Below, in pieces: positions 2,635 to 17,970 of a stretch of 64,000 nt of DNA. Under the pieces are notes generated by a model. It made no database searches. It had not been told where the DNA came from and saw nothing but the letters and a program-made list of their open reading frames with translations. Location: the NCBI RefSeq assembly GCF_013391475.1, contig NZ_JACBAZ010000002.1, forward strand, positions 248,001 through 312,000, in the 5' to 3' direction. Within the stretch, counting starts at the first letter, position 1. Every line of letters begins with the position of its first letter. The position numbers and the translations under genes are program-made. The DNA is from Oceaniferula marina. Its GTDB lineage: Bacteria; Verrucomicrobiota; Verrucomicrobiia; Verrucomicrobiales; Akkermansiaceae.

Positions 2635-3399
2635 TTACTTGCGACGACGTAAAATGAGTGAGATGCCACCGAGGCCGAAAAGGGCTGCCGAGGTCGGTTC
2701 GGGAACGGCGGTTGCTTCTAGTGTGACGCCGTTATAAATGGCATAAGAGCCACTGGCATTATTATTTTGAAAGACCTGAAGAGTATAAGTCCCAGCGCCA
2801 AGTGTAGTTCCAGTCAGGTCGAAGTTCACAGAATGATAGGCCGGAGCAACTGAGTAATCTTCTGTCGATATACCTGTTACCGCCGCGCCAAGCGTTCCTC
2901 CGGAGATAGAGAAATTAAGATCGGATGTGTAACTCTGATCTTGAGTGCCAGTGTTAGTCGTATGCCCCGAGAGAACATTTAGATTAGTAGCGGCCCATGA
3001 AGTATCAATCGTGAACGTCAAACTGTATCCATGATCAGCGGTGCCTTGGTTATGATTCCTACTTAGATAAATATTATTAGGCCCAGCATAAGTTGCTGTG
3101 CCACCTCCGAGTTGGGCAAATCCACCACCACCTGTAGCAATGGCCGTAAGACCAGAAATAGAGGTTACCGAGGAATCCTGAGTCCAGTCCGTGATCGTGA
3201 CGTTGGCACTACCACTGGTATTGTCGGTGTTTCCGGCAAAGACGTGAGCCCCGGTATTACCGTCAAAATCACTCGAAAAGAGTGTTGTCACGGCCGCATT
3301 GGCAAAGCCAGCACTCGCGATGAGGCTGGTTGTTAGTATGGTTTTTATCATATTCGTATTGGGTTGTATTTGGTTTTGGTTTCTTCTTTGTGTTTTCAT
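2635..3399 (-). CDS. PEP-CTERM protein, module 1
   Basis: Exported surface protein of 254 residues from ATG 3399, which overlaps the FecR stop codon as ATGA. The ATG at 3351 (MIKTILTTSLIASAGFANAA) gives a more typical signal peptide and may be the real start. The mature part is a Gly/Thr/Ser-rich beta-sandwich-like domain (SSDFDGNTGA, AGNTDNTSG, NNIYLSRNHNQG, GHTTNTGTQDQSY, YHSVNFDLTG). The C-terminus has the PEP-CTERM tripartite signal: PEPTSAAL, a hydrophobic GLGG segment and LILRRRK. Family knowledge says this signal is processed by an exosortase; none is encoded here. The same domain, without the sorting signal, is the N-terminus of the downstream sulfatase. Confidence 0.9.
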   Translation of the reverse strand: MKTQRRNQNQIQPNTNMIKTILTTSLIASAGFANAAVTTLFSSDFDGNTGAHVFAGNTDNTSGSANVTITDWTQDSSVTSISGLTAIATGGGGFAQLGGGTATYAGPNNIYLSRNHNQGTADHGYSLTFTIDTSWAATNLNVLSGHTTNTGTQDQSYTSDLNFSISGGTLGAAVTGISTEDYSVAPAYHSVNFDLTGTTLGAGTYTLQVFQNNNASGSYAIYNGVTLEATAVPEPTSAALFGLGGISLILRRRK

Positions 3400-4907
3400 G
3401 GTTTCAAAAGCTGCTTTACCTCTTTGGTGGTCATATGACCGTCAAAAATGTAAAGCTCGTCGATTTGACCACGGAAAAGATTTCGGTCTTTGGGGGCTAC
3501 GAAGAGATCGGAGCCGATCATAAGTGGAGATGATTTGAGATTGGTTGTTGAGGTTTGTATCGGACTATCGAGAGGGCTCTGTCCTTGTTTTTCATAGGAT
3601 GATTTTTGTTGGATTCCATTGATGTAAAGTTGAGCTTGGGGGAATCCGAAGTCATCGAGTAGGTCTGAGCTTGTCACTGTGATGTGTTGCCACTGATTTG
3701 TCGCTAGCGGAGATGTAGCCGTTAACCATATATTGCCCCAAGAAAGTCGAAGGCGGGGGGTGCCAGAGGTAGAGCTAGGAGCTAATGCGACTTTCCACTT
3801 TTTGTTTCCATGAGTGCGGTCACCCCAGCCAAGAATTCCCGGCGTTGCTCGGTAATCTTCATTGGCGGGTAGTTTTAACCAAAAGGAAACTGTCCGTGGA
3901 CGATTTTTAGAAAAACCAGGCCAATCCGTAATGAGATGCTGGTTTTTTCCGTCAAAAGAGAGTGATGTGCCTAAGCGACCATCTACAAACTTGGTGGGTG
4001 CCTCGGCAGAGGTTGAAATGTGAGGAACGTCCGGATGGGTTCCCGAGACTTGCATATCGCGGTCGAACGACCAATGAAGGTAGGGCAGGGTGTTGGGAAG
4101 TTTGCTTGGGAAGCTTGCGTCTTGCGTGGCGATGGCGTGGAGCCGTCCAACGGGATCGATTCTGCGGGCTTCCCCTTTGCCGAGGGTGGTACTTTCTTTG
4201 CGCAGGCGTTTGGCGGTGACCTGGACATGGCCTTTGAGGACGTGGACTTCGTCGTGTTGGTCGGGGTCTGCCTTGACACCGAACTCGGTGCCGAGGTCGA
4301 CGATGTGGAGGTCCGGAGTATCCACGGTGAATCCCTCGGCTCCTTGGGGCACCTGAAAGCGGGCAACGCCTCGACGCAGGTAAAGCTGCTCTTCGTCGTG
4401 TAATGTCAAGTCCGCCGGGCCGATGACGATGGATTGCACACCATTGGGAAATCGGAGTTGGGCACTCCCTTGTTTGATTTGCAGGCGAGACCCCGGAACC
4501 AGCCGTTGGCCCAGTGGTGCGTCGGCGGATTCATCGTGACTGATGGTGAACTGGGTGCCGGGCGAGGTCTGGAATGCCAGACTGGCGGGTTCCACCGGAT
4601 CGACAAAAAACAGCCGCATGGTGACCAGCGAGATAATCAGAAGGGCTGCCGCAGAGGCGAGGGCGATGCTGAGATTGCGCCGTTTCTGACGTTGGATGAT
4701 GCGATCGATGGGGATGATATTTTTTGCCAGCGGGTCAGGTGTCAGCGCCTGGAGCTCGATGATATTCTGCAGGTGGATGAAATCGCGGTAGAGGTCACGG
4801 GCCTCCGGGTTGTGGCGTAGTTCATGCTGCAGGGTCTCCAGTTTTTCCTCGGCGAGCGAACCGTCGAGAAAATCCTGGATCAGGTTTTCGAGTTCACGTG
4901 GTTTCAT
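3396..4907 (-). CDS. FecR-like membrane regulator with C-terminal LamG domain, module 1
   Basis: 503 residues from ATG 4907, chosen because it overlaps the sigma-factor stop as ATGA; an upstream in-frame start exists at 4937. Order: about 75 cytoplasmic residues (FLDGSLAEEKLETLQHEL, a pattern shared with the other two modules), one transmembrane helix near residues 79-101 ending MRLFFVDP, a FecR domain about 118-235 (PGSRLQIKQGSAQLRFPNG, DLGTEFGV, DEVHVLKGHVQV), and a LamG/concanavalin-like domain about 285-500 (LHWSFD, LSFDGKNQHL, VSFWLKLP, QIDELYIFDG). By analogy to FecR it should control the sigma factor encoded just before it, with the periplasmic LamG domain as a possible sensor or glycan/protein binder. 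The latter is inference. Confidence 0.88.
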   Translation of the reverse strand: MKPRELENLIQDFLDGSLAEEKLETLQHELRHNPEARDLYRDFIHLQNIIELQALTPDPLAKNIIPIDRIIQRQKRRNLSIALASAAALLIISLVTMRLFFVDPVEPASLAFQTSPGTQFTISHDESADAPLGQRLVPGSRLQIKQGSAQLRFPNGVQSIVIGPADLTLHDEEQLYLRRGVARFQVPQGAEGFTVDTPDLHIVDLGTEFGVKADPDQHDEVHVLKGHVQVTAKRLRKESTTLGKGEARRIDPVGRLHAIATQDASFPSKLPNTLPYLHWSFDRDMQVSGTHPDVPHISTSAEAPTKFVDGRLGTSLSFDGKNQHLITDWPGFSKNRPRTVSFWLKLPANEDYRATPGILGWGDRTHGNKKWKVALAPSSTSGTPRLRLSWGNIWLTATSPLATNQWQHITVTSSDLLDDFGFPQAQLYINGIQQKSSYEKQGQSPLDSPIQTSTTNLKSSPLMIGSDLFVAPKDRNLFRGQIDELYIFDGHMTTKEVKQLLKP

Positions 4908-5446
4908 GAGGTGGTATTGATTTGGTAGGAGACGCATTTGCGCAGGCTGTTGCGGATGCGGTGCAGGGTGACGCGTAGTGAGCCTGCCGGGCGGCCCAGA
5001 TTTTGAGCATATTGTTTCAGGCTGGTGTTTTTGGCGTAGCGCTGTTTGACGAGCTCGAGCTCTCCGGGGTTGAGTTTTTTCAAGCAGTGCTCAAGTGCCT
5101 GCATTCTGGATTCGGTGTCTTCAGCTGGAAGCTGGCAATAGGCGGCCAGGTCATCGTTGAGTTGCTCATCGAGACACAACATCGGTTGCTTCCGGAGCAT
5201 TTTCCGTCGATGGGTTTTGACCTCGAAGCGCGCAATGGCAAAGGCCCAGGCTGCGAAGTGGCTGCCGGGCTCGAAAGATTTTCGTTTTTCCCAGAGGACC
5301 AGATTGGTTTCCTGGAGCACGTCGGAAACTCCGTCCATCCCCGGCATGAGGGAAATGATATAGGCACGCAAGGACACCTGATGCTGGGTGATCAGCCCGA
5401 CAAATTCGCGTTGGAACTCAGGAGTATGTTCGTGGGTGGACGACAT
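4904..5446 (-). CDS. ECF RNA polymerase sigma factor, module 1
   Basis: 180 residues with the two regions of an extracytoplasmic-function sigma-70 factor. Region 2 is about residues 15-85 (LRAYIISLMPGMDGVSDVLQETNLVLWEK, FAAWAFAIARFEV) and region 4 about 112-172 (LKKLNPGELELVKQRYAKN, LKQYAQNLGRPAGSLRVTLHRIRNSL). The wording LQETNLVLWEK and SLRVTLHRIR fits the Rhodopirellula/Verrucomicrobium sigma family. It starts the four-gene minus-strand module and overlaps its FecR-like partner by four bases, so the two are probably translationally coupled. Its target promoters cannot be read from the sequence; autoregulation is likely by analogy. Confidence 0.93.
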   Translation of the reverse strand: MSSTHEHTPEFQREFVGLITQHQVSLRAYIISLMPGMDGVSDVLQETNLVLWEKRKSFEPGSHFAAWAFAIARFEVKTHRRKMLRKQPMLCLDEQLNDDLAAYCQLPAEDTESRMQALEHCLKKLNPGELELVKQRYAKNTSLKQYAQNLGRPAGSLRVTLHRIRNSLRKCVSYQINTTS

Positions 5447-5506
5447 TGCTTAACACTAGCATACGTCACATTACCCATCGGCGTTAACAAGAAGATGTTT
5501 TTTTAT

Positions 5507-5547
5507 ACCAATGAGGAAAATACTACCAGTTACTTTTCCTCATTGGT
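5507..5547. promoter_or_regulatory. Perfect 14-bp inverted repeat upstream of sigma factor 1
   Basis: ACCAATGAGGAAAA (5507-5520) and its exact complement (5534-5547) are separated by 13 nt. The repeat lies about 60-100 nt upstream of the sigma start codon. Neither strand has a T-run directly after the stem, so it does not look like a simple terminator. An operator or a 5'-leader hairpin is possible. Nothing similar is seen before sigma factors 2 and 3. Confidence 0.5.
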
Positions 5548-5584
5548 TATAGGCAGGTTCTTCCCCATTTTTCCGTTTCCTGCA

Positions 5585-5620: not shown

Positions 5621-5662
5621 TGGTTTCCTGCTTATGCGCGAGGAAGATGAGTGGGTTGATGT

Positions 5663-6277
5663 TTATTTCCTGCGCCGCAAGATCAGGCTGAGACCTCCGA
5701 GGCCAAGGAGAGCCGCGGAGCTGGGCTCGGGGACTGCCTGCAAGGTCAGTTCATCGAAGCGGACAGCTGCGTAGTTATTGGATTTTTCATCGTAATTCAG
5801 ATGGACCTCCCACTGGGTGGCATCGCCTTTTTCAATGGAAAGGTCAAAGGCTGTCCAATTATCGTTGCCAATGGTTGAACCGGAAAAGGTGAAGGATGTT
5901 TCCCGGTCACCAGCGGCGCCGCCGAGAGCCTTCAGTGTCACCGTGCCTACATCAGCTGGGCCGGAGTTGATGACGGCCCAGGCCCATCCCTTCAAGTTGA
6001 TGGTGGGTTCGGTGATTCCGGTCAGTGTGCCTCTTTGGTAGATATAGGCATCTCCTGTTCCCCGGACGAGAACTCCGCGGCTGTTGTAGCCGTAGGAGTT
6101 ATCAGCACGATACAGGTTGGTTCCTGTCCAATTGGCAGGGCGGTTAAGGTTGGCTTTGCCGGTGCCCGTATTCTGGAAGTCTCCATTGAGGAGAGGTAGA
6201 ACGGTCGCAGCAGAGGCACTTTGGCACAGAGCGGCGAGGCTTATGGTCAGTGCCGTGGTTAATATGGTTTTATTCAT
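5663..6277 (-). CDS. PEP-CTERM protein, module 2
   Basis: 204 residues: signal peptide (MNKTILTTALTISLAALC, cleavage near SASA-A), then a beta-sandwich-like region (LLNGDFQNTGTGKANLNRPANW, GWAWAVINSG, FTFSGSTIGNDNWTAFDLSI, VRFDELTLQ). The start resembles the 'NGDFE...P.GW' opening of many PEP-CTERM and discoidin-like domains. The C-terminus is PEPSSAAL, a Leu/Gly-rich segment and LILRRRK. The start codon lies inside the last codons of the upstream FecR-like gene (8-nt overlap), so the two are co-translated. Probably exported and anchored or released at the cell surface by an exosortase; molecular function unknown. Confidence 0.9.
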   Translation of the reverse strand: MNKTILTTALTISLAALCQSASAATVLPLLNGDFQNTGTGKANLNRPANWTGTNLYRADNSYGYNSRGVLVRGTGDAYIYQRGTLTGITEPTINLKGWAWAVINSGPADVGTVTLKALGGAAGDRETSFTFSGSTIGNDNWTAFDLSIEKGDATQWEVHLNYDEKSNNYAAVRFDELTLQAVPEPSSAALLGLGGLSLILRRRK

Positions 6278-7685
6278 GCGTTGTTTTGCTTGTTTTTTGT
6301 TGTGGGGGATTTTTGTTTTTTCCTTCAGAGGATGTTTTGGCCGGGCCGCTGCTTACGAGCACGCTGTCCAGCAGCAGGTCTGCGGCCTTGCCTCTTGAGC
6401 CTTCGTCATCGATGGTCAGTGTTGCAAGGCCAGAGGTTTTGGGGGTGAAAGAGAAGGATGCTGAGGCCCACAGTTGTTTGGGGGCTGGCATCAGACCGGT
6501 GCCGGAAGACTGGTCGCCGAGTGAGAAGGTCGCCTTGATCTGGTGGAGTGCATTGTGGCTGCCGGCGTATCGGAAATAGACCGTGTAGGTTCTGCCGGCA
6601 GATACTTCGATCTCCTGGGAGACGCTGTTGATGGGTCTGGCGTTTCCGCTGCCTATGGCGAGAAAGCTGTTGCCTTGGGCTGTGATTTCATGACCCTGGT
6701 GATCAAAATGGACGTCGGAGTGGTCATCTTGCCCCGTGGTATTGATGGCGCAGCCAGTGCCCTGATAATGACCTCTGACGACGGCGGCTCGGCCACGGAT
6801 TTTCCAGTTCAATTTGTAAGCGTTAAACTGGTCTTCGAAGACGACCATGGGTGTCGAGTCGTCGGGAAGGGCGACTCGGAAACGTTGATGTTTTACGGGG
6901 ATTTCCTTGAGCCTTCCCGCCGGATCTACCACCAGAGCCTCAGTGGAGGTAAGCAGCTTTTCTTGTTTGGCTGCACCGATGCTGGCAATCTGGACACGGC
7001 CTTCGAATACGTGCACTTCATCGAGGGCTTTCGGGGAACTCATGATACCAAATTCCGTGCCGAGGTCCGTGACGAGCATACTGCGAGTCTGGACTTGGAA
7101 GCCGGAAGCCTCAGGGGGAACATGAAACCATGCGGTGCCTTCGCTGAGTTTCAGCTTGTCCTCGTTGCTCAAGGTCAAGTCTGCGGGGGCTTCGATGATC
7201 GAGCGGACTCCGGAGGGGAAGCTCATTTCGACTACACCTCGCCGGAGTTGGAGCCGGGATCCTGGCAGCAGGGCTTGCTCATTGCTGAGTGTGGCATCGG
7301 ATGGGAGCTCATCGTGGGTCAGCGTGAAAAGTGTATCAGGTGCGGTGCGGAAAGTGAGAGGACGGATCTCCGGTTCCGGGACAAAAAACAGGCGCATCAG
7401 GACGGCACAAAGCAGAAGCACGGCGGCGGCAGCGAAGGTGGCGATGCGGACCGATCGGCGTTTTTGTTTGGCAAGAATACGTTCGATGGGGATGACATGC
7501 TGATGTGCTGATGGGGGGATGGACTGGGATCGGCCCAGATAAGTGTGGATCTGAGCCATTTCCACGTAGAGGATGGCGGCCTCCTTGTTGTGTTCAAGCT
7601 CTTGCTCCAGCGTGCTTAAATCATCAGCCTGGATGGAGCCATCGAGCAGGTGTTGGATGAGTTCGGTCAATTGGTGTTCGTTCAC
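6270..7685 (-). CDS. FecR-like membrane regulator with C-terminal jelly-roll domain, module 2
   Basis: 471 residues. A cytoplasmic N-terminus (LLDGSIQADDLSTLEQELEH) leads to a transmembrane helix at about residues 80-101 ending MRLFFVPEP. The FecR domain follows at about 115-235 (PGSRLQLRRGVVEMSFPSG, DLGTEFGI, DEVHVFEGRVQI). Unlike modules 1 and 3 the C-terminal half is not LamG-like but resembles a carbohydrate-binding jelly roll (FEDQFNAYKLNWKIRG, SVSQEIEVSAGRTYTVYFRYAG, LLLDSVLVSSG), with a polar Lys/Ser-rich tail. The ATG overlaps the sigma stop as ATGA. Predicted partner of the sigma factor at 7682-8221. Confidence 0.87.
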   Translation of the reverse strand: MNEHQLTELIQHLLDGSIQADDLSTLEQELEHNKEAAILYVEMAQIHTYLGRSQSIPPSAHQHVIPIERILAKQKRRSVRIATFAAAAVLLLCAVLMRLFFVPEPEIRPLTFRTAPDTLFTLTHDELPSDATLSNEQALLPGSRLQLRRGVVEMSFPSGVRSIIEAPADLTLSNEDKLKLSEGTAWFHVPPEASGFQVQTRSMLVTDLGTEFGIMSSPKALDEVHVFEGRVQIASIGAAKQEKLLTSTEALVVDPAGRLKEIPVKHQRFRVALPDDSTPMVVFEDQFNAYKLNWKIRGRAAVVRGHYQGTGCAINTTGQDDHSDVHFDHQGHEITAQGNSFLAIGSGNARPINSVSQEIEVSAGRTYTVYFRYAGSHNALHQIKATFSLGDQSSGTGLMPAPKQLWASASFSFTPKTSGLATLTIDDEGSRGKAADLLLDSVLVSSGPAKTSSEGKNKNPPQQKTSKTTHE

Positions 7686-8221
7686 GGGCTAGCTCCTTCC
7701 GTGGTGAGTCGTTTGTTGACACATTTGCGGAGCTTGTCACGGACACGGAAGAGTTCGACTCTCAGGCCATTGGCAGAGCGGCCGGTGCGCTTGGCGTGCT
7801 GTTCCAAGTTGTCGCCCTTGTTGTATCTGGCGCGGATCAACTCCTGATCAGCTGGTTTGAGCGATTCTACGCAGCGATCGAGTGCCCGCTGACGCTGCAC
7901 CGTGCTCTGAGGTGTGTGTTCGTACCAGATGTCGCAGACGGCTTTGATGACTTTTTCGTTGAGCTTGGGTGAGAGGTTGCGACGGTTCGACTGAAACTGA
8001 GCTTTGGCTTTGTTCCGTGCGATGGCGAAGGCCCAGGCTTGAAAATCCGAGCCTGCCCGATAGCTATTCATCTTTTCCCATATCACCACATTGGTGTCCT
8101 GAAGCACATCCTCCACATCATCTGACCCTGGCATAAGGGATACGATGAAGGCGCGCAGAGCGTCCTGATGTTGAATCATCAGCTTGACAAACTCATGCAA
8201 TTCTTTTGGAGGTGATTCCAT
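7682..8221 (-). CDS. ECF RNA polymerase sigma factor, module 2
   Basis: 179 residues; sigma region 2 (LRAFIVSLMPGSDDVEDVLQDTNVVIWEK, FQAWAFAIARNKA) and region 4 (LKPADQELIRARYNKGDNLEQHAKRTGRSANGLRVELFRVRDKL). It aligns almost throughout with the sigma factors at 4904-5446 and 17440-17970, sharing the LRAFIVSLMPG start and the family pattern LQ-T-V-WEK. First gene of module 2, preceded by the terminator of the phosphodiester operon, so a promoter must lie within about 80 nt upstream. Confidence 0.93.
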   Translation of the reverse strand: MESPPKELHEFVKLMIQHQDALRAFIVSLMPGSDDVEDVLQDTNVVIWEKMNSYRAGSDFQAWAFAIARNKAKAQFQSNRRNLSPKLNEKVIKAVCDIWYEHTPQSTVQRQRALDRCVESLKPADQELIRARYNKGDNLEQHAKRTGRSANGLRVELFRVRDKLRKCVNKRLTTEGASP

Positions 8222-8300: not shown

Positions 8301-8335
8301 CAAAAAACCCGGAGAAAGCAGGTCTTTCTCCGGGT
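8301..8335 (-). terminator. Intrinsic terminator of the glycerophosphodiester operon
   Basis: The stem CCCGGAGAAAG / CTTTCTCCGGG is followed on the minus strand by six T, 38 nt beyond the phosphodiesterase stop. The hairpin and its loop are identical in sequence to the terminator at 5585-5620. Confidence 0.9.
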
Positions 8336-8373: not shown

Positions 8374-9294
8374 TTATTGATGGAGACCTTTTTTTCTCAG
8401 GTACTGGAGTAGAAACTCAGGTTCGTCGGTTTGGAAAATGCTTACGCCCATATCAATCATGGACCCCCAGACTTTTTCCGGGTCGCGCAGGGCATTGGCA
8501 TCGGCATGGCCGGATGGGTGGCAAACTCGCAGCGTGTTAATCCAGACTCGAACCTTGCGTTTCTTGAATTCATCCATGAAGGCTTTGGAAAGTGCGGGTG
8601 AATGGATATCACGCACGATCACCTCCACCATACGGACGCGCTCGTTGATCGGGTAGACATCATCAAAACCAAGCTTTTCCCCTGCGGCAATGGCTTTGCC
8701 TTTTTTATCCACATTAAAAATGGGCATGTAGATGACTTTCCGGTCTTTGCCCAGCATTTGGTCGACTTTTTCCATGCTGTGTCCACCTTTGAGGACCACT
8801 TGGCTAGCTGTTCCGGTTTTTTCCAGAATCGGGTTGATCTCCGCCAGATGGCTGTGGATTTTGTCGAGGTTGACCAGAATCTTGCCTTTGCATACAGCGA
8901 GGGCCTCCTCAAGGGTGGGGATACGCTGGTCGCTTGCTTTGCCCTGATGTTTCAGTCGGAATTCACGAAGTTCGGCCAGCGTGTATTGCGAGACCTTGCC
9001 TTTGCCTGTGGTGGTGCGGTTGATGGTAGAATCGTGCATTAACACAAACCGGCCGTCCTTGGTTTTACGGACATCCACTTCGATCATGTCAACACGCATG
9101 GCAATGGCATCGAGGATTGATTGGATTGAGTTTTCCGGTGCTTTTTTCCATGCGGCACGATGGGCGACAACCAGAACGTTTTTATTGGCCGGGTCTTCGG
9201 CCATCCGGCGGATTTGCTCGGAGCTTTGCTCGGCGGCGTGTGTGATCGCGATGGACAGGGCTGCGATGGTCAGTGTTGTGAATTTGAGCTTCAT
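8374..9294 (-). CDS. Glycerophosphodiester phosphodiesterase, exported
   Basis: 306 residues from ATG 9294. This start gives a clear signal peptide (MKLKFTTLTIAALSIAITHA); the longer open frame upstream has no such feature. The GDPD signature residues are His45-Arg46, Glu54-Asn55, Glu72 and Asp74 (IEVDVR), and His87-Asp88 (LMHDSTINRTT), followed by the TIM-barrel strands (LVNLDK, VVLKG, VWINT, IFQTDEP). The family hydrolyses glycerophosphodiesters to sn-glycerol 3-phosphate and an alcohol, using a divalent metal. Last gene of an operon with an organophosphate antiporter 43 nt upstream, which would import the product. Confidence 0.92.
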   Translation of the reverse strand: MKLKFTTLTIAALSIAITHAAEQSSEQIRRMAEDPANKNVLVVAHRAAWKKAPENSIQSILDAIAMRVDMIEVDVRKTKDGRFVLMHDSTINRTTTGKGKVSQYTLAELREFRLKHQGKASDQRIPTLEEALAVCKGKILVNLDKIHSHLAEINPILEKTGTASQVVLKGGHSMEKVDQMLGKDRKVIYMPIFNVDKKGKAIAAGEKLGFDDVYPINERVRMVEVIVRDIHSPALSKAFMDEFKKRKVRVWINTLRVCHPSGHADANALRDPEKVWGSMIDMGVSIFQTDEPEFLLQYLRKKGLHQ

Positions 9295-9337: not shown

Positions 9338-10714
9338 TCAATCTCCGGCGATTGATGAATCGGAGGCTTGTTTCTTTTTTCGCATGGAAAGATAGAAGAA
9401 AAGGGAGGCCAGAATGATTGAGACCAGAGAGGCCCCGATCCAAAAAGTGATGACGGTGGTAAAATCGTAGATTTTGGTTTCGACGCCATCGACGACGGTG
9501 GGGGTTGACTTGATCAAGGCGCCACTGATGCCTTCCTGGCAGCCGGCACCGATGTAGCTGAAGATCCCGATGATGCCCATGGCGGCGCCTGCGGCTTTTT
9601 TACCGGCGATATCGACGGCGATCAGACCTCCGAGCAAGACGAGCAGGCCTCCCGTCGCGAAACCGAACAGCCCGAGCCCGAGTTTGTCCGCCCAGAACCA
9701 ATGAGCGGGGGTCAGGAAAACCAGGCACATGCCGCCTGTTTGCAGCAGGCCATAGAAGATGGTCACGGGGCCGCGTCGGGAATGGAAAAACATGTCGGAT
9801 ATCCATCCCGCGCTGATCGAGCCGAAGATACCGACGATGGCGTAGATCGACATGGTGCCGCTGGCATCGAGCAGCGAGTATCCTTTCTGTTCCTGAAGGA
9901 AGAGAATACACCAGTTGTTGACGGCGTAGCGACTGACATACATGAGGGCGCTGCTGAGGCCGATGATCCAGACCAAGGGGTTGAGCAGGACTGCGAGTTG
10001 CTCTTTGCCAATGGTTTTGCCCTGGTGCTCTTTGCCCTGGTAGGTATTGACGGGCGGGAGTCTGTAGGTTTCCGGTTTATCCGATAGCATCCAGTAGAGG
10101 AAGACGGAGCCAATGACACCGGCGATGCCGGCGCCGATGAACCCCCAGCGCCAGCCCATGGCGCCGACGAGCAGGGCGGTGCAGACAAAGCTCAGCCCTT
10201 CTCCAATATTGTGGCTTACACTAAACCAGCCATAGACGGTCCCCATTTGTTTTCTTGGCACCCAGTTGGAAATGGAAGAGATGGCCGGAGCTGCACCCAT
10301 CGATTGGAACCATCCGTTCAGCCCCCAGAGAACGACAAAGGTAAAGAAGCCGGAGGTGAAACCCAGAGCGAGATTGAGTAAGGCTGAGATCAGCAGGCCA
10401 AACGACATGAAGCGTTTGATATTCGCGTAGTCTGCTAGAAACCCGTTTGTGAATTTGCCTAAGGCGTAGGCAAAAAACAGGGCGGCTCCAATTTGCCCTA
10501 ATTCATCAGTGGTCAGGATGCCCTCGTCCAGAATGGGCTTTTTGACTACGGACATACTGAGGCGTGCCACATAAAAAATGCCATAACCAAGGGTGGTTCC
10601 AATGATGATTTTCCACTTGCGCGTGGTGAGCTGACGCGAAATTTCTTTCGGATCCCTGTCCGTGCAGGGCAGAGGTGTGCCGGTCTTGAAGAAGGACAGA
10701 AGGGATCTGATCAT
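9338..10714 (-). CDS. MFS organophosphate:phosphate antiporter (GlpT/UhpT/UhpC-like)
   Basis: 458 residues, about 12 transmembrane segments. Family features of the OPA group include the cytoplasmic start (RKWKIIIGTTLGYGIFYVARLSMSVVKK), FTNGFLADY after the third helix, GLNGWFQSMGAAPAISSISNW and the HNIGEGLS stretch. It most resembles the glycerol-3-phosphate / hexose-phosphate branch; GlpT-type uptake is favoured by the phosphodiesterase genes on both sides of the operon, but a hexose-phosphate substrate fits the adjacent phosphomutase equally well. The spacing to its neighbours is 31 and 43 nt, so it is almost certainly co-transcribed with them. Confidence 0.88.
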   Translation of the reverse strand: MIRSLLSFFKTGTPLPCTDRDPKEISRQLTTRKWKIIIGTTLGYGIFYVARLSMSVVKKPILDEGILTTDELGQIGAALFFAYALGKFTNGFLADYANIKRFMSFGLLISALLNLALGFTSGFFTFVVLWGLNGWFQSMGAAPAISSISNWVPRKQMGTVYGWFSVSHNIGEGLSFVCTALLVGAMGWRWGFIGAGIAGVIGSVFLYWMLSDKPETYRLPPVNTYQGKEHQGKTIGKEQLAVLLNPLVWIIGLSSALMYVSRYAVNNWCILFLQEQKGYSLLDASGTMSIYAIVGIFGSISAGWISDMFFHSRRGPVTIFYGLLQTGGMCLVFLTPAHWFWADKLGLGLFGFATGGLLVLLGGLIAVDIAGKKAAGAAMGIIGIFSYIGAGCQEGISGALIKSTPTVVDGVETKIYDFTTVITFWIGASLVSIILASLFFYLSMRKKKQASDSSIAGD

Positions 10715-10745: not shown

Positions 10746-12242
10746 TTATTCCGTGATGATTCCGTTGAATTCATTTTCAAGAATGCGGCGGAGCTCGGTT
10801 TCGATGTCCTTGCCAAGGGTGTGATTGGCAGAAGAGATGTAGCTTCTGACAACACCTTTTTCGTTGGTTGCGATCCGGATGTATCCTGAATACCAATTTT
10901 CATTGAGCTTGATACCGCTATTGGTGATTTCCACACCATTGTAGATCACCACACCACCCAGATCGATGCCCTCCGGGGTTTCCGTCGCCATTGTCGAGCC
11001 GGTTTGTTCGAAGAAGCTGAGGATGGCGGCCATCGCCCGGTCTCTTATCTCATCGGTTTCGAAGGCATAGTTGAACTCGCCGGAGGTAAAGACTTGCTCT
11101 TGCATGGCTCTGACTTCCTTGATCCAGTCCGGGTTCTTTTTGACGGCATCCAAAAACAGCAGGATGGTTAGCAGCGAGTTTTCGCTCCATACGCGGATAT
11201 CACCTAAATCGAGACGGTTGTAGAAGTGGCCGGACTCCTCGGCTCCGGCGATGGCATCGATTTCCCGCATGAAATCTTTGATCTGTGAGTGCCCGTTTCG
11301 GAATAAAACCGGCTCCACATTGAGTTTGCTCCATTGTTCCAATGCGAGTGGGTTGACCTTTGGATCATAGAGGACTTGGATGCGTTGGTTTGATGTTTCG
11401 CGGGATAGCAGGGCCTTGAGGATGGGAATCATCACAAAGCCCGCGCTGAATATCCCCTGTTGGTCTCCGAAGACGACCCGGTCACCGTCACCGTCGATGC
11501 CCATGACCAGCTGGGCATCCTGTGATTTTGCCACTTCAATCGCAGTGTCCATTTTGTTCTGGCTTGCCGGATTCGGGGAGCCGGTTGGGAATTCACCGTT
11601 GGGAACCAGCCGCTGGGGAATGACCTTGACCCCAGCGCGGGTCAGAGCGCGGAACAGTTCGGGGCCGGCCGAGCCGTTGAAGCAGTCGAGCACCAGGGAA
11701 AGGCCCTCTAACGATCCATCTTGAACTCCCGCGGTTTGCATGGAATAGCGGATGTATTGTTCGGCTGGGTTTTCAATGACGGACAGGCTGCCTCCTGGTT
11801 TGTTTTCGAGTGAGAACTCGGAGCGATAGAGTTCTTCGACTTTCGCCAGGCCGTTGAGCGGACCGCAGTCGTAACCAATCGATTGAACGGTGGGGACGGT
11901 AAATTTTACCCCGACGTACTGGGCGGGGTTGTGGGATGCCGTGATGGCCAGCCCCATGGTGTTCGGGTGTTGTGAGCTGAGTTGCATGGAGGCGAAATAG
12001 CTCATCGGTGTGCTGATCGGGTCAAAACATGTAAATACCTGGAAGCCGGCTTCCACTGCCAGTTCGATGCCGATGTCCATCACTCTGGCGCAGCCAAGCC
12101 GGGTGTCGCGGGTGATGCTGATGGTATCGACTCCGATCTGGGAGGCGTATCCCAGAGTGGCCTCGAACAGGCGCCTGACGGCCGCGTCGTCGAATTCGTT
12201 GACTTCCCATCGTGCGTCATAGACTTTTATCGGTGTGTTCAT
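10746..12242 (-). CDS. Phosphohexomutase (phosphoglucomutase/phosphomannomutase superfamily)
   Basis: 498 residues. The alpha-D-phosphohexomutase motifs are all visible: catalytic serine loop TASHNP (Ser103), metal loop GIDGDGDR (248-255), sugar-specificity loop GAEESGHF, and a C-terminal phosphate-binding domain (NGVEITNSGIKL, YIRIATNE). It interconverts hexose 1- and 6-phosphates; glucose versus mannose specificity cannot be decided by eye. It sits between an exported phosphodiesterase and an organophosphate transporter, which suggests that a sugar phosphate is released and imported along with glycerol phosphate (inference). Confidence 0.9.
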   Translation of the reverse strand: MNTPIKVYDARWEVNEFDDAAVRRLFEATLGYASQIGVDTISITRDTRLGCARVMDIGIELAVEAGFQVFTCFDPISTPMSYFASMQLSSQHPNTMGLAITASHNPAQYVGVKFTVPTVQSIGYDCGPLNGLAKVEELYRSEFSLENKPGGSLSVIENPAEQYIRYSMQTAGVQDGSLEGLSLVLDCFNGSAGPELFRALTRAGVKVIPQRLVPNGEFPTGSPNPASQNKMDTAIEVAKSQDAQLVMGIDGDGDRVVFGDQQGIFSAGFVMIPILKALLSRETSNQRIQVLYDPKVNPLALEQWSKLNVEPVLFRNGHSQIKDFMREIDAIAGAEESGHFYNRLDLGDIRVWSENSLLTILLFLDAVKKNPDWIKEVRAMQEQVFTSGEFNYAFETDEIRDRAMAAILSFFEQTGSTMATETPEGIDLGGVVIYNGVEITNSGIKLNENWYSGYIRIATNEKGVVRSYISSANHTLGKDIETELRRILENEFNGIITE

Positions 12243-12280: not shown

Positions 12281-14197
12281 TTAGTTAGATGCGGGGGGGC
12301 TGGGCTCGACGAGGAGCCGCAGAAATAATCGTGGAGGTTGTTCACCGGTGGAGGAGTGAAAGGAGGTTTCGATGATTTGCGGGTTGTCGTCCTCGTTGGA
12401 AGTGACGGTTTCCTGCATGGTGATGGTGTGGTTGCCGTCACTTTCTCCGGAGGCATGCCAGGTGGTCATATCCGAGCTCCAGAGGATTTGGCCGCTGACG
12501 CCGGTCCGCTGAAGTGCCCGGAAGTGACGGGTGGTCGTGGTTCCGTCCGCAGAGGTGAGAATACTGAGTTGGATGTTATCTTGTGTATTTTGAAGATCTG
12601 CGCCGCAGTAGTAGCTGAGCATGTTGTCGGGTTTGGGGATGAGACCTTTGATCTCGATGCTGTCGAGCATCACCCATCCCCAGGAGCCATGGTTTTGATC
12701 GATGAAGTCGAGTTGGTAGGTTTCTGCCGGGTCATCGTCGGACAGGGCATCGGCAATTTCTTGTTGGCTCCAGCCACATGCTTGCCAGTCCGCGTTTTGA
12801 GCACTTGTGATACGGTGGTCGTAGAGAAGGTAGGCGCCATCGCTGACCCGGCGCAGGGCGACACCGGCAAAACCTTCAGATTCGCTTGCCGGGGCCAGCG
12901 TTTCCCGGGATGTGGGTGTGGTGCTTGTGTTTCCGGTTCCTCCGAGAAGATGGAAGGTAATGGCCCATTCAGCGGTCAGACTTTCATCGAAATCAAAGGC
13001 AGGGGAGGTGCAAACGAGAGTCGGGTGGGCAACATCACGGCCATCCAGCCAAGTGCCGTTGCCGCTGTGCATCAGGGCGTATGCGCTATTCTGGCCGCCG
13101 CCTCGGCCTTGATCGGTTTGAGGGGCGAAGCTTGCCGGATTGTCTGTGGCGTTTCCGGTCAGCGTGTTTGTCCAGCCCTGCAGGGATCCATCGTCAAAGT
13201 CGTAGCTGTGCTGGGTGAATGGATGAGTGGGTGTCGGTTCTTCCGGAGGGTCGCTTGTACGGTTTGCAAGGTAGTCGATGAGTTGCGGTGCGTTGTCCGT
13301 TTGAATGATGGTAGCCCCCTGGTCGATGAGCCATCCCCAGGATCCGTCCGGATTGCCACTCAAGGCAACGGCATCGTGGTGGCCGGCACAGAGGCTGGAC
13401 CAGAGCGAGTTGATCCAGATGTGGGTATCGGTCTCGGTGGCCTTGCTGCGGGATGCGCTGCTCAGCATGCCGGTGCTGGAGTTGTTGAAAATGATTTCTG
13501 TGGCGTGCGGGCTGTGGGCAGTGAGCATGCTGATCATGCCGGACTCCGAGCTGTTGGATAGAATCGGCATGTAATGGATGCTGTGCCCGGGGTAGGTGGC
13601 CCGCATGGCGGCCACCTGACTGGCAGAGGCCCCTCCCTTGAAGATGGCATGATCGACAGTTCCGGTGGCGATCAGAACATCCATGATGGCATTGCGCAGA
13701 GAGAGATCGTTGATGTTGACCTTGTCGAGGTTGACCATCGCCCGACCTTTGACCAGAAGCATGAGCTCTTCCAGCGTCGGGACCGTCTCATCACTGAGGG
13801 CACCACCTGACCCCTTGAGCTTCAGGCTCGTGACTTGGTCCAAGGTCATATCACTGACGTTGCCGCTACCGTTGGTGGTGCGGTTCACGGAGCTGTCATG
13901 CATGAGGACGAGGCCGCCGTCCGAGGTCATGCGGATGTCGACTTCGAGAATCTCGACCCCGAGGTTCATGGTGAAGTCCGCCGCGGAGAGTGAGTTTTCC
14001 GGATGGGTGATCTGGCCGTTGGACATGTAGCCACAACGGTGGGCTGCAATCATGACGTGGTCCGGGTCGATATCGGTGTAGGCCGTGATGGCGCTGGTTT
14101 CCGCTTGGCACGGCAGGGGTGCAGAGAGTGCCACGCAGCATGCTGCCCTGAGTAAAGCGTATAGGGGTGTTACAGATGGCAGGTGCGAAAAAGTCAT
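12281..14197 (-). CDS. Exported glycerophosphodiester phosphodiesterase with added beta-sandwich domain
   Basis: 638 residues from ATG 14197; the longer open frame to 14311 runs through a terminator hairpin and is rejected. A signal-like hydrophobic stretch ends near residue 31. The GDPD domain (about 48-315) has His53-Arg54, Glu67-Asn68, Glu85/Asp87 and His100-Asp101. After a Pro-rich linker, residues 330-525 repeat the domain of the neighbouring PEP-CTERM protein 14364-15062: YDFDDGSLQGWTN, GVALRRVSDGAYLLYD, GWSQQEIADALS, ETYQLDFID, WGWVMLDSIEIKG. The last ~110 residues form another small beta-rich region ending LFLRLLV. It has no PEP-CTERM signal of its own. First gene of the phosphodiester operon. 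Confidence 0.9.
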   Translation of the reverse strand: MTFSHLPSVTPLYALLRAACCVALSAPLPCQAETSAITAYTDIDPDHVMIAAHRCGYMSNGQITHPENSLSAADFTMNLGVEILEVDIRMTSDGGLVLMHDSSVNRTTNGSGNVSDMTLDQVTSLKLKGSGGALSDETVPTLEELMLLVKGRAMVNLDKVNINDLSLRNAIMDVLIATGTVDHAIFKGGASASQVAAMRATYPGHSIHYMPILSNSSESGMISMLTAHSPHATEIIFNNSSTGMLSSASRSKATETDTHIWINSLWSSLCAGHHDAVALSGNPDGSWGWLIDQGATIIQTDNAPQLIDYLANRTSDPPEEPTPTHPFTQHSYDFDDGSLQGWTNTLTGNATDNPASFAPQTDQGRGGGQNSAYALMHSGNGTWLDGRDVAHPTLVCTSPAFDFDESLTAEWAITFHLLGGTGNTSTTPTSRETLAPASESEGFAGVALRRVSDGAYLLYDHRITSAQNADWQACGWSQQEIADALSDDDPAETYQLDFIDQNHGSWGWVMLDSIEIKGLIPKPDNMLSYYCGADLQNTQDNIQLSILTSADGTTTTRHFRALQRTGVSGQILWSSDMTTWHASGESDGNHTITMQETVTSNEDDNPQIIETSFHSSTGEQPPRLFLRLLVEPSPPASN

Positions 14198-14308: not shown

Positions 14309-14363
14309 CACTGAGTTGGATGGGGTTGCTGTTGGTATTACTGCAACCCCAGGTGTTGGAGAA

Positions 14364-15062
14364 TTACTTGCGACGACGCATCATCAGACTGAGTCCACCA
14401 AGTCCGATCAAGACCGCGCTGGATGGCTCGGGCACGACTGTGACATTTTCCATGGTGACTGTATCCATGGAGACCCATCCCCAGCCATCGGAGAAGGTAT
14501 CGATGAGATCGATTTGATACGTTTCATTAGCGGCATCTCCTGAGATTGCATTGGAGATTTCAGTTGTATTCCAGCCCACTTGTTGCCATCCGCCAGAATA
14601 CTGCCCGTTAGTGGCTTTTCGGTCAAAGAGCAAATATTCTCCGTCACTTACGCGACGAAGGGCTACACCCAAGTAGCCTGAGTCAGTAGCTGAGCTGGGT
14701 AAGTTGGAGTAGTTGCTCCAGGTCGGAGTTGCTGTCGATCCCATTCCTCCGTTTAAGTAAAGGGAAATGGTAGAACTGTTATTCATCGTGAATAATTCAG
14801 AACTGATCACTTTGACGGTCGTGTCGGTGCCATCCCTGTCACTAAAATCAGATTCAAGAACAGAGTAGGATCCGCTTTGGCCAGGTGAACGGGTTACTGA
14901 ATTTGATGAGATATAATCTTCACCAGTGGTTCCACTGGGAACATTATTGGTCCATCCCTGTAGTGTGCCATCATCAAAATTATAGTTGACTGTCGCAGCA
15001 TAGCACGGCGATGCGGTGAGCATGCCGAGGGCGCTTAGTTTTGTTAGCATTCGTTTATTCAT
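14364..15062 (-). CDS. PEP-CTERM protein, module 3, second
   Basis: 232 residues. The signal peptide ends near PCYA-A. The mature domain opens with VNYNFDDGTLQGWTN and contains GVALRRVSDGEYLLFD, GWNTTEISNAIS, ETYQIDLIDTFSDGWGWVSMD. All of these recur in the C-terminal half of the downstream phosphodiesterase. The tail is PEPSSAVL, GLGG and LMMRRRK. The gene lies 54 nt after the previous PEP-CTERM gene in the same direction and is followed by an intrinsic terminator. It is likely a surface protein with a galactose-binding-like or LamG-like fold; ligand unknown. Confidence 0.9.
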   Translation of the reverse strand: MNKRMLTKLSALGMLTASPCYAATVNYNFDDGTLQGWTNNVPSGTTGEDYISSNSVTRSPGQSGSYSVLESDFSDRDGTDTTVKVISSELFTMNNSSTISLYLNGGMGSTATPTWSNYSNLPSSATDSGYLGVALRRVSDGEYLLFDRKATNGQYSGGWQQVGWNTTEISNAISGDAANETYQIDLIDTFSDGWGWVSMDTVTMENVTVVPEPSSAVLIGLGGLSLMMRRRK

Positions 15063-15116
15063 GTTGGTTGTGTGGTTATGTGGTTATGGTCTTGGGTTCT
15101 ATTGTTTGGTTTTTTG

Positions 15117-15818
15117 TTATTTACGCCGGCGCAGGATGAGGGCAATTCCTCCGAGACCGATTAATGCGGTGCTGGATGGCTCAGGGACGGCTTCTGCTAG
15201 GGTTGTGGCGGCTGTCAGTTGACTGACAGAGATCGTATCATTGGTTCCAATACGAATCTGAGACCAGTCAGCGGAGTTCGGAGTGATATCGGTTCCGGAC
15301 CATGCTTTGTCAGCAACTCCAAGCGCAGCGACACTGGAAGTGTCGCTGGGGTCAACCCACATATCGACGCTCGTGCCGGTAATGTGCAACACCAGACGAG
15401 CTTCGGTTCCTGTGAAACATGTAATGCTCGATGTTTGGTCGCTCATGCCGTCGGTATCGAACTCCCACTTGTTGGAAGCTCCGTCAGCTCCAAGAGCGAA
15501 ATCTTCATTACTTCCGGCGTAGATGGAAATAGCACCCCATTTTGATGCGTTCGTGCCCAAGGTTACATCGGCAATGAGCCAGAAATCCATGGTTGTGGTA
15601 TTAATCGGACTCGAAAGCTGACGGAATGAGGTGTCATTGTTGACTGCGATGCTTCCTCCGGAGATGGTGCCCTTCGTCCAATTATTAGAAAATCCCGATC
15701 CTGAAGTTGTGGATGAAAAATCATCCGTGAAGAGGACGGCGGCTTCTGTGTGCGTGGCCAGCAGGCATAAACTAGCACATGCCGTTGCCGTAATTTGTTT
15801 ATGGGTTCGTTTAATCAT
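15117..15818 (-). CDS. PEP-CTERM protein, module 3, first
   Basis: 233 residues, signal peptide ending near THTEA-A. The mature part is a concanavalin/LamG-like beta-sandwich (VLFTDDFSSTTSGSGFSNNW, MDFWLIADVTLG, GAISIYAGSNEDFALG, LVLHITGTSVDMWVD, QIRIGTNDTISV) of the type that binds glycans or other surface ligands. The C-terminus has PEPSSTAL, GLGG and LILRRRK. It begins 23 nt after the FecR-LamG stop and so belongs to module 3. The FecR partner also carries a LamG domain, but similarity between the two is only at fold level as far as I can see. Confidence 0.9.
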   Translation of the reverse strand: MIKRTHKQITATACASLCLLATHTEAAVLFTDDFSSTTSGSGFSNNWTKGTISGGSIAVNNDTSFRQLSSPINTTTMDFWLIADVTLGTNASKWGAISIYAGSNEDFALGADGASNKWEFDTDGMSDQTSSITCFTGTEARLVLHITGTSVDMWVDPSDTSSVAALGVADKAWSGTDITPNSADWSQIRIGTNDTISVSQLTAATTLAEAVPEPSSTALIGLGGIALILRRRK

Positions 15819-15841
15819 AGTGAGTTATGTTTCTATTACTG

Positions 15842-17443
15842 TTATTTATGGTTCTCATTCATGAGAGGGGGGCGTTCAAAAAGTTCTGAGACTTCCTGTG
15901 CTGAGAGTTGGCCAAAAAAGACATAGACCTCATCGAGGTCGCCATGGAAGTAGGATGGCTTTTTGGGGTGGGGATGGAGGCTGCGTCCGAGGGTGAACGG
16001 GTGCGAATATCGGTTGTTGGTGCTGGTGTTGACCTTGCTTTGTCCGTTTTCCAACAGATCCAAAGGTTGATTGTGGACCCACTTACTGTTTTCCCGTTTG
16101 CCGTCGAGATAGACTTGAATATCGGGTTTGCCATCGGAGTCGTGTTTCCCTGAATAGGTTACACAGACTTGATGCCACTGGCCGTCGTTGACTGCTGTGG
16201 AGCCCTCGAGCCAGAGCCCTCCGAGGGTGCAGTTGATGATGCTTTTCTTAGGATCGCCGGATCGTTTTCTACCCAACTGGATGTTCCATTTGGTATTCTT
16301 GGTTTCCCGGCCTGGGAATCGGGTGCCCCATGCGACGACACCAGAATCATATTTTGGTGAGGCCTCATTTGGGATACGGAACCAGAAGGCGATGCTGCGG
16401 GGAGCGTCCCCATGGATACCGGGCCAGTTGCTGGTGACCGCTTCATTTTTTCCATTGAAGCGCAGGCCCTTACCCTGAGGGCCTGGAATAAAGCGTTGAT
16501 CAACGGGTGTTGCTTCAGCCTGAATGAGCGTGGATTCGATTTCTCCGGCAATTGGATGGCTGCCCTCGCAAATCAGCTTGTCTCCGCTGTGTTGGTCGAA
16601 GGACCAGTGCAGATAGGGTAGGCTGGATGGAAGCCGGGAGAGGAAGGCTGCTGGCTTGGGCTCGAGAGGGACCAGACGCCCAATCGGGTCGATACGTCTG
16701 GCTTCACCAGTGTTGAGAATGGTGGACTCTTTACGAAGTCTTTGAGTGGTTACCTCCACCTTGCCTTTGATCACGTGGATTTCATCATGGTCGTCAGGGT
16801 TGGCAAGCACACCAAAGCGGGTGCCGAGGTCGACAATGCGCAGGTCACTGGTTTTGACTTCGAACCCAATGGCTTGTTTCGGCACGTGAAACCAGGCAGT
16901 CCCTTGGTGTAGGTGGATCTGGTCGTCGCTGTGCAAGGTGAGGTCGGCAGGGGCCAAGACGACGGATTTGACGCCCGACTTGAAGGTGAGTTCGGCCACT
17001 CCCTGGCTGATTTGCAGGCGGGAGCCAGGTTGCAGCATTTGTCCTTCGGGGGCGGTATCAGGTCCATCGTGAGTGATGGTGAAGAGGGTGCCGGGCGAGG
17101 TTTGAAAGGAGAGAGTCGGCGGGCTTGTGGGATCGACAAAAAACAGCCGCATGGCGATCAGGGAAAGGACGATCACGGCGGCGGCTGCCATCAAGGCGAT
17201 GCGGCGTGTCCTGCGGCTTTGCAGTTGAATGACTTTATCGACGGGCACCACCGGGCTGTCACTCATAGAGATTGAGTGGCTGTGCTGGGTTTCGAGTGAG
17301 CTGGAGAGCCAGGCGTACTTCCGGTAGGAGGCAAGGGCCTCGGGATCCACGAGCAGGAGTTGTTCGAGTTCGGCAAAATCATCGGTGGAAATCTCACCGT
17401 CGATCGCTTGCTGGATCAGCCATTCGGTCCGGCGGGCACTCAT
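15842..17443 (-). CDS. FecR-like membrane regulator with C-terminal LamG domain, module 3
   Basis: 533 residues from ATG 17443, chosen for the ATGA overlap with the sigma stop. The N-terminus (AIDGEISTDDFAELEQLLL) and the transmembrane helix at about residues 81-102 ending MRLFFVDP match modules 1 and 2. The FecR domain spans about 115-235 (PGSRLQISQGVAELTFKSG, DLGTRFGV, DEIHVIKGKVEVTTQRLRKEST) and is very close to module 1 across its second half. The LamG domain covers about 285-525 (LHWSFDQHSG, LRFNGKNEAV, IAFWFRIP, DLDEVYVFFG). Predicted anti-sigma or sigma-activating partner of 17440-17970. Confidence 0.88.
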   Translation of the reverse strand: MSARRTEWLIQQAIDGEISTDDFAELEQLLLVDPEALASYRKYAWLSSSLETQHSHSISMSDSPVVPVDKVIQLQSRRTRRIALMAAAAVIVLSLIAMRLFFVDPTSPPTLSFQTSPGTLFTITHDGPDTAPEGQMLQPGSRLQISQGVAELTFKSGVKSVVLAPADLTLHSDDQIHLHQGTAWFHVPKQAIGFEVKTSDLRIVDLGTRFGVLANPDDHDEIHVIKGKVEVTTQRLRKESTILNTGEARRIDPIGRLVPLEPKPAAFLSRLPSSLPYLHWSFDQHSGDKLICEGSHPIAGEIESTLIQAEATPVDQRFIPGPQGKGLRFNGKNEAVTSNWPGIHGDAPRSIAFWFRIPNEASPKYDSGVVAWGTRFPGRETKNTKWNIQLGRKRSGDPKKSIINCTLGGLWLEGSTAVNDGQWHQVCVTYSGKHDSDGKPDIQVYLDGKRENSKWVHNQPLDLLENGQSKVNTSTNNRYSHPFTLGRSLHPHPKKPSYFHGDLDEVYVFFGQLSAQEVSELFERPPLMNENHK

Positions 17444-17970
17444 GCGGGATCTCCTTCCACAAGTTGCCGATCGACACATTTTTTCAGGGCAGCCCGCACC
17501 CGGAACAGCGAGGCGCGCAGGGCACCGGCAGATTTCGATTGGTGCTGGGCAAGGTCTTCGAGGCTGCAGCCCTTGGTGTAGCGGTGGCGAATGAGCTCGC
17601 GTTCGGCTGCACGGAGCCGGTTCATGCAGTGTTCTAGTGCCCGCAGCTGTTGTTCATCGTCATGATCCTCCGTATCGGGTTCGGAGAGAGAATGCATTAA
17701 TTCATCGCAGAAGACGAGGCGGCCGTCGCGCTTGGCCTTGTCCCGCTGCTGCATGACCTGGTAGCGTGCGATGGTAAATGCCCAAGCAAGGAACTTGGAG
17801 CCTTTCTCGAATTGTTCCCGTTTTTGCCAGAGCACGAGGTTGGTTTCCTGCAGGACATCGCCGACATCGGGGTTTCCTGGCATCAGCGACACAATAAACG
17901 CCCGCAACGCACCTTGGTGCTGCGTCATCAATTGGACGTATTGTTGTAAGGATTCCGAATTTTCGCTCAT
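17440..17970 (-). CDS. ECF RNA polymerase sigma factor, module 3
   Basis: 176 residues; region 2 (LRAFIVSLMPGNPDVGDVLQETNLVLWQK, LAWAFTIARYQV) and region 4 (LRAAERELIRHRYTKGCSLEDLAQHQSKSAGALRASLFRVRAALKK). Close paralogue of the other two module sigma factors. It is first in a minus-strand operon that includes a FecR-LamG protein and two PEP-CTERM proteins. Its start faces the plus-strand PA14/RHS locus across a ~630-nt divergent intergenic region. Confidence 0.93.
   Translation of the reverse strand: MSENSESLQQYVQLMTQHQGALRAFIVSLMPGNPDVGDVLQETNLVLWQKREQFEKGSKFLAWAFTIARYQVMQQRDKAKRDGRLVFCDELMHSLSEPDTEDHDDEQQLRALEHCMNRLRAAERELIRHRYTKGCSLEDLAQHQSKSAGALRASLFRVRAALKKCVDRQLVEGDPA

Follow-up and report, generated by a model that had tools for sequence, protein, structure and literature searches.

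For the sigma regulators FecR and FoxR, self-cleavage at a Gly-Thr motif and processing by RseP have been described (PMC9249621, PMC8144685). In the SigI/RsgI system of Clostridium thermocellum, several parallel anti-sigma factors sense different substrates and control extracellular polysaccharide degradation, again with cleavage by RseP (PMC12203970, PMC10766802), and in Leptospira the extracytoplasmic function (ECF) sigma factor and the FecR-like regulator of the LIC_12757/LIC_12756 pair have been shown to interact (PMC12155086). The 64,000-nucleotide stretch of Oceaniferula marina analysed here (the window; C2:248001-312000 of the 5.07-Mb assembly) contains three modules, all on the minus strand, in which an ECF sigma gene is followed by a gene for a FecR-like membrane protein and by one or two genes for PEP-CTERM proteins (Table 1). 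Each module is probably a self-contained polysaccharide-utilisation switch, in which the FecR ectodomain senses a glycan directly and drives a surface capture protein together with an enzyme, a reading to which we assign a probability of roughly 0.6.

The modules had been described earlier from the letters of the DNA (the sequence-only reading), and that observation holds with corrections. Its ten open reading frames are all present on the minus strand with the same coordinates, and its assignments of the proteins were borne out: the three ECF sigma factors score 149-161 bits against TIGR02989 (cut-off 124.55), the FecR proteins combine a PF04773 match above cut-off with one transmembrane segment and an adjacent ECF gene, and each of the four PEP-CTERM proteins has a PF07589/TIGR02595 match. 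The LamG domains proposed for modules 1 and 3 correspond to Laminin_G_3 matches above cut-off (E 2e-14 and 2e-12), while the jelly roll proposed for module 2 is plausible but not established, as the ectodomain has sub-threshold matches to DUF642 and CBM_4_9 only. The ATGA overlap between the sigma and FecR genes, thought to be identical throughout, is found in modules 1 and 3 but reads GTGA in module 2. Likewise, the membrane exit MRLFFV is present in all three FecR proteins but is not peculiar to them; it occurs in seven FecR proteins, all of one gene array on contig C2, which fits common descent. The modules are consecutive only in a loose sense, since modules 3 and 2 are separated by a strong terminator-like hairpin (8335-8307) and by four genes of the module 3 run, which encode a GDPD-domain protein, a phosphoglucomutase-like protein, an MFS transporter, and a second GDPD protein. 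Nor do the modules end at the PEP-CTERM gene, where the sequence-only reading stopped: a sulfatase gene, which extends 228 bases past the window start, continues module 1, and the GDPD genes continue module 3. For the PEP-CTERM gene of module 1, either 3399 or 3351 may be the start. In module 3, the FecR protein has a cytoplasmic N-terminus, one transmembrane segment (..MRLFFV), a FecR domain with the motif DLGT, and a LamG ectodomain. A fourth sigma/FecR module begins just outside window position 1.

Table 1 Features of the three sigma/FecR/PEP-CTERM modules, in the order in which the minus strand is read
Feature	Position	Strand	Evidence
Module 3 ECF sigma (TIGR02989)	17440..17970	-	161.2 bits, cut-off 124.55
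Module 3 FecR anti-sigma	15842..17443	-	PF04773 32.6 bits; PF13385 47.8 bits
Module 3 PEP-CTERM protein 1	15117..15818	-	TIGR02595
Module 3 PEP-CTERM protein 2	14364..15050	-	domain common to downstream GDPD-family protein
GDPD-family protein with DUF4996	12281..14134	-	PF03009, PF16387
Phosphoglucomutase/phosphomannomutase-family protein, module 3 run	10746..12242	-	PF02878-02880; gap 38
MFS transporter, module 3 run	9338..10714	-	PF07690
Second GDPD-family protein, last of module 3 run	8374..9294	-	PF03009, PF16387
Terminator-like hairpin, module 3 run / module 2 boundary	8307..8335	-	12-pair stem + TTTTTG
Module 2 ECF sigma (TIGR02989)	7682..8221	-	149.5 bits
Module 2 FecR anti-sigma, GTG start	6270..7685	-	PF04773 32.3 bits
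Module 2 PEP-CTERM protein	5663..6277	-	TIGR02595
Module 1 ECF sigma (TIGR02989)	4904..5446	-	157.5 bits
Module 1 FecR anti-sigma, LamG ectodomain	3396..4907	-	PF04773 34.7 bits; PF13385 54.2 bits
Module 1 PEP-CTERM protein with DOM1 (2716-3288)	2635..3351	-	TIGR02595; DOM1 alignment
Terminator-like hairpin, PEP-CTERM gene / sulfatase gene	2569..2599	-	14-pair stem + TTTTTC
Secreted S1-type sulfatase	1..2528	-	PF00884 130.7 bits; CSPTR motif at residue 371

Within the O. marina genome, of which ~745 kb around sigma genes were read, 24 proteins match PF04773, and all 24 of their genes have a same-strand sigma gene directly upstream. A model built from these 24 added six further sigma pairs with FecR-like partners (one of them, C2_168403, is short and a weak match), giving a total of 30. 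A PEP-CTERM gene lies within the next three same-strand genes in 26/30 pairs compared to 0/14 other ECF genes (Fisher p = 2.7e-8). The window itself also contains a lone ECF sigma of 210 aa with no FecR partner (52409-53041). Ten of the 24 FecR genes occupy the minus strand of C2:160-266 kb, and the window therefore takes in the upper end of an array. Both parts of a PEP-CTERM/exosortase system are found in the genome, with one exosortase and at least 150 matches to the PEP-CTERM motif. A run of very large PEP-CTERM proteins (frames of 1046-1731 aa) is located at C4:653075-679104.

The pairing is also conserved among relatives. FecR matches were found in 31 of 39 genomes of the same order (O. 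marina included), and 98 loci from relatives yielded 85 distinct FecR-like proteins in 18 related genomes. A sigma gene is kept directly upstream on the same strand in 75 of these 85, in line with the conserved gene order on which the sequence-only reading had depended; several of the remaining FecR genes lie at contig ends or after doubtful gene calls. Sigma and FecR distances correlate across 104 pairs (Mantel 0.57 for the cytoplasmic N-terminus, 0.50, and 0.46; 0/999 permutations), a correlation to which shared species history contributes. Together these results support the earlier proposal of parallel sigma/FecR circuits. The output of these circuits, proposed to be exosortase-sorted surface protein, was only partly captured: PEP-CTERM genes do adjoin the pairs and the genome does encode an exosortase, but secreted hydrolases are usual as well, and PEP-CTERM proteins represent one of at least two kinds of output. 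They follow the pair in O. marina, G019, G008, G012, G029, and G032, whereas in other relatives the pair is followed by a large and a medium protein, which are PSCyt1/PSCyt2/PSD1 and DUF1501 proteins where tested (G035, G030). PSCyt1/PSCyt2/PSD1 and DUF1501 gene pairs were seen behind the same sigma/FecR pairs at L126, L106, and similar loci. Exosortase presence as the cause of PEP-CTERM output was rejected, as an exosortase is found in 31/39 members of the order, genomes of the PSD1/DUF1501 type included, and most genomes with either kind of output have one. A 925-aa neighbour at one locus (L064 of G016) was dismissed as a module member, being valyl-tRNA synthetase. At two further loci (L072, L140) the layout is divergent, with the PEP-CTERM gene on the strand opposite to sigma/FecR and a FecR ectodomain homologous to a divergent gene.

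Past the PEP-CTERM gene, a module usually runs on into a sulfatase, esterase, GH95 fucosidase, or phosphodiesterase. In O. marina, which has 145 sulfatase-domain matches, the downstream genes mostly encode secreted hydrolases (sulfatases, a SASA carbohydrate esterase, a GH95 protein, and GDPD-family proteins), and the enzymes at modules in all genomes comprise sulfatase, SASA esterase, GH95, GH29, BNR_4, GDPD, and metallophosphatase, although some sigma/FecR pairs have no downstream enzyme. Regulator and enzymes are co-located in the modules, and the glycan-binding protein that would complete a polysaccharide utilisation locus (PUL) is suggested by the fold of a domain, here termed DOM1, in the PEP-CTERM protein of module 1. 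The sulfatase of the same operon has a second copy of DOM1 as its N-terminus (1881-2468), with 61% identity between the two. A comparable pair is found in module 3, where PEP-CTERM protein 2 is 42% identical over its domain to the C-terminal domain of the GDPD protein (12647-13204; phmmer E 6e-33). These matches come from a comparison of PEP-CTERM proteins, with signal peptide and sorting tail removed, to all read proteins; for relatives the module neighbourhoods were read, so that a best partner is relative to the fetched DNA, and whole genomes were searched for the two window domains. In O. marina, the whole-genome search recovered no whole-domain copies of the module 3 domain other than those in PEP-CTERM protein 2 and the GDPD protein. 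Module 3 PEP-CTERM protein 1 has no domain-sharing partner among the read proteins, and the one other homologue of the module 2 protein in the genome is likewise a PEP-CTERM protein. Overall, domain sharing was seen for 12 PEP-CTERM proteins at 11 loci in five genomes, further O. marina modules among them, with partners in relatives being a BNR_4 protein (G019), a GH29 fucosidase (G029), a sulfatase and another large protein (G008), and a metallophosphatase (G032). As grouped by computation, 12/66 PEP-CTERM proteins in modules compared to 1/42 elsewhere have as their best partner an enzyme-sized protein at most 8 kb away (p 0.015). In the one case elsewhere, the PEP-CTERM gene lies immediately upstream of a sigma/FecR module; counting it with the modules, a post hoc choice, gives 13/67 vs 0/41 (p 0.0016).

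The whole-genome search found three copies of DOM1 in O. marina, none of them outside module 1 and its adjacent module; the domain is present in 2/384 genomes of the class. A scan of ~85,000 species genomes, which is pattern-based and can miss distant copies, returned three loci. In Luteolibacter marinus NBU1238, a sigma gene, a FecR gene (4-base overlap), a PEP-CTERM protein with DOM1, a 752-aa protein with two copies of DOM1, and a sulfatase with an N-terminal DOM1 stand in a row. Several neighbouring genes of a Kiritimatiellales contig encode DOM1, among them those for a PEP-CTERM protein and for a truncated protein that runs into an apparent sulfatase start; on a Pontiella contig a DOM1 protein adjoins a sulfatase. 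An AlphaFold2 model of DOM1 from a 10-sequence alignment is all-beta (pLDDT 82.7, pTM 0.85) and jelly-roll-like, with PDB matches mostly to the carbohydrate-binding module (CBM) families CBM61, CBM6, CBM32, and CBM16; single-sequence prediction of the PEP-CTERM protein gave a pLDDT of 41. DOM1 matches no Pfam family even at E 1 and, by that search, belongs to no known CBM family.

The lectin-like nature of the FecR ectodomains, also part of the sequence-only reading, is supported. In six modules of relatives the ectodomain is homologous to a neighbouring protein, and in the clearest case, L141 of G032, one LamG type is found in the FecR ectodomain, the PEP-CTERM protein, and the metallophosphatase (214-220 bits; next FecR 22 bits). 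The family of module 2-type ectodomains has relatives among the PEP-CTERM proteins encoded in other modules (hhalign probability 96.8), while a relation of the module 2 ectodomain to its own PEP-CTERM protein was rejected (hhalign probability 0.2). Also rejected was a general rule by which the ectodomain matches the local enzyme, as the best non-FecR match lies in the same module in three modules only. The nearest match of the module 1 ectodomain (55%) is its counterpart in the adjacent module, where the sulfatase carries DOM1 too; local duplication may explain this likeness as well. At L106:9989-13059 a FecR ectodomain has a domain in common with the N-terminal part of a PSD1 protein (32 bits), and domain sharing may thus extend beyond PEP-CTERM modules. 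Among eight C2-array paralogues, the FecR middle domain (68% mean identity) and the membrane exit (59%) are better conserved than sigma (38%), the cytoplasmic N-terminus (29%), and the ectodomain (27%). Such a conserved core between variable ends would be expected if the circuits are insulated and share a transmission step. This core carries the DLGT motif, LGT being present in 92/114 FecR proteins, and the genome has a gene for an RseP-like M50 protease. Motif and protease are no more than compatible with proteolytic activation ending at RseP, and by analogy the window FecR proteins could undergo the same Gly-Thr/RseP processing.

Based on these features, FecR would keep the ECF sigma factor at the inner membrane by means of its variable cytoplasmic N-terminus, while the outer LamG or jelly-roll domain would bind a glycan, or a fragment of it, that reaches the periplasm. 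Binding may then lead to stepwise cleavage through the FecR middle domain (DLGT) and the conserved transmembrane exit, possibly ending with an RseP-type protease that frees the sigma factor to drive its own operon. Anchored at the surface by exosortase, the PEP-CTERM protein would capture glycans, and the operon output would be completed by secreted sulfatases, esterases, glycosidases, or phosphodiesterases, often with the same accessory binding domain. This reading is favoured because of the sigma/FecR/PEP-CTERM gene order, the enzyme set, the in-operon domain sharing, and the L. marinus case, and further because of the CBM-like fold of DOM1, the sharing of ectodomains, the divergence pattern, and the LGT motif.

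Several findings weigh against it. Module 2 of the window has no enzyme, and in most modules the FecR LamG is nearest to other FecR LamG domains rather than to the local enzyme. A search for a common promoter motif upstream of 31 sigma genes by bipartite enumeration gave nothing convincing, the best motifs being frequent in the background. A terminator-like hairpin stands behind 36/77 PEP-CTERM genes that have a neighbour on the same strand, compared to 40/572 other genes (p 2.6e-17) and 1/60 FecR genes (p 2e-10 vs PEP-CTERM genes), which makes co-transcription of the enzymes uncertain. Either the PEP-CTERM gene is the end of a first transcript, or partial termination results in much surface protein and less enzyme. 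The outputs of L. marinus are the closest relatives of those of window module 1 (62 and 63%), while its sigma and FecR have nearer relatives in other modules; this indicates that sensor and output were not inherited as one unit, and output cassettes seem, from these sequence relationships, to move between regulators. The TM-scores of DOM1 against PDB, by query length, are mostly 0.3-0.47 (below 0.5), a weak similarity to CBMs; given these scores and the lack of a Pfam match, glycan binding by DOM1 is likely from its model but not established. Finally, the reading draws on gene, sequence, and model data.

Alternatively, the sigma/FecR pairs could serve envelope or surface-layer homeostasis. They would sense mislocalised PEP-CTERM protein or a surface polymer made by the cell itself and adjust production of exosortase-anchored coat proteins, and the sulfatases and esterases would remodel exopolysaccharide of the same cell. 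PEP-CTERM/exosortase systems have been tied to exopolysaccharide (PMC1569441), the PEP-CTERM gene is the most constant neighbour of the pairs, and some modules lack an enzyme. Nevertheless, GH95, GH29, many differing sulfatases, and SASA esterase in ~30 parallel modules look like a response to diverse external substrates, and PSD1/DUF1501 proteins replace PEP-CTERM in relatives, so that this explanation appears unlikely. Sensing might instead be indirect, with the FecR ectodomain binding no glycan but the domain that the PEP-CTERM protein or enzyme shares, and its LamG or jelly-roll contacts reporting whether that protein is free or glycan-loaded. Homologous domains in sensor and outputs could associate in this way, and classical FecR senses a protein, the signalling domain of FecA, rather than the ligand (PMC7186176), but in most modules sensor and output domains belong to different families, which makes indirect sensing quite unlikely.

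It is also improbable that the domain sharing is a mere by-product of local duplication in repeat-rich Verrucomicrobiota genomes and that sigma/FecR regulate unrelated genes. Such duplication would place partner proteins nearby, as seen, and would sit well with the pairs that lack a downstream enzyme. It accounts poorly for the PEP-CTERM neighbours of sigma/FecR pairs (26/30 vs 0/14 for other ECF genes), for the greater rarity of domain sharing in PEP-CTERM genes outside modules, and for the recurrence of DOM1 together with sulfatase and PEP-CTERM in L. marinus, where the preceding sigma/FecR pair is differently related, and with sulfatase in Kiritimatiellales and Pontiella. Glycan sensing by FecR itself remains the preferred reading. 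A wider version of it is less likely than not: TonB-independent FecR glycan sensing might be widespread in Verrucomicrobiota, with the sensor, exosortase-anchored protein, and hydrolase of one operon carrying copies of the same binding domain, ~30 insulated circuits each for one polymer, and output cassettes exchanged between regulators. The interpretation given in the sequence-only reading is partly supported and too narrow.

Elsewhere, the window encodes an RHS-repeat protein of 1933 aa (23204-29005) downstream of a 1221-aa PA14/TSP3 protein (18551-22216), a CBM_X2 protein (30190-32547), and a polysaccharide lyase family 8 protein (40063-42996).

To break down fucoidan and other recalcitrant sulfated glycans, marine Verrucomicrobiota use hundreds of enzymes, and to our knowledge how they choose among these is poorly described. 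PEP-CTERM proteins form a very large family whose function is mostly unknown. If the modules are glycan switches, module boundaries would predict regulons, a shared domain would link a PEP-CTERM protein to the enzyme for the same polymer, and PEP-CTERM proteins would gain a testable role as surface glycan-capture proteins. In the open-access papers searched on glycan degradation in Verrucomicrobiota and Kiritimatiellales, the modules go unmentioned and no ECF/anti-sigma regulators are reported for such loci; priority is not claimed.

Among described systems, the window modules share with FecA-FecR-FecI (and FoxR, PupR, and FpvR) an adjacent ECF sigma and single-pass FecR-domain regulator, a Gly-Thr motif in the FecR domain, and an RseP-type protease in the genome. 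In contrast, a lectin-like ectodomain takes the place of STN, and no TonB receptor accompanies the pair: of five Plug-domain matches in the genome none is near a module. A Pfam search detected no STN domain in the three window FecR proteins, where a sub-threshold STN is possible, and found Laminin_G_3 or CBM-like matches instead. By their components the modules are FecR/ECF pairs, but they are not members of FecA-FecR-FecI signalling. The Leptospira pair LIC_12757/LIC_12756 likewise consists of an ECF sigma and an adjacent FecR-like single-pass regulator, although the latter has 350 aa (PMC12155086), compared to 471-533 aa in the window, and was studied for the response to iron and nutrient limitation rather than glycans; the NCBIfam anti-sigma model LIMLP_03685 matches the window N-termini far below its cut-off (E 1.6e-10 in module 3). 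Like ECF/anti-sigma PULs of Bacteroidota, which place the regulators beside a surface glycan-binding protein and glycan-degrading enzymes (PMC10766802), the modules would join regulation, glycan binding, and degradation. They differ from these PULs in having a PEP-CTERM surface protein, a sensor with its own lectin-like domain, and no SusC-type TonB receptor by Plug-domain search (SusD was not searched for). As proposed, the modules would work most like SigI/RsgI, although the regulators are unrelated: the window proteins belong to the FecR and TIGR02989 families and not to SigI-type sigma factors or the RsgI N-terminal domain, and their host is Gram-negative with an exosortase-type surface protein instead of a cellulosome. 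This comparison suggests that the modules are a variant of glycan-responsive ECF/anti-sigma regulation, the unexpected part of which is the sharing of domains within an operon.

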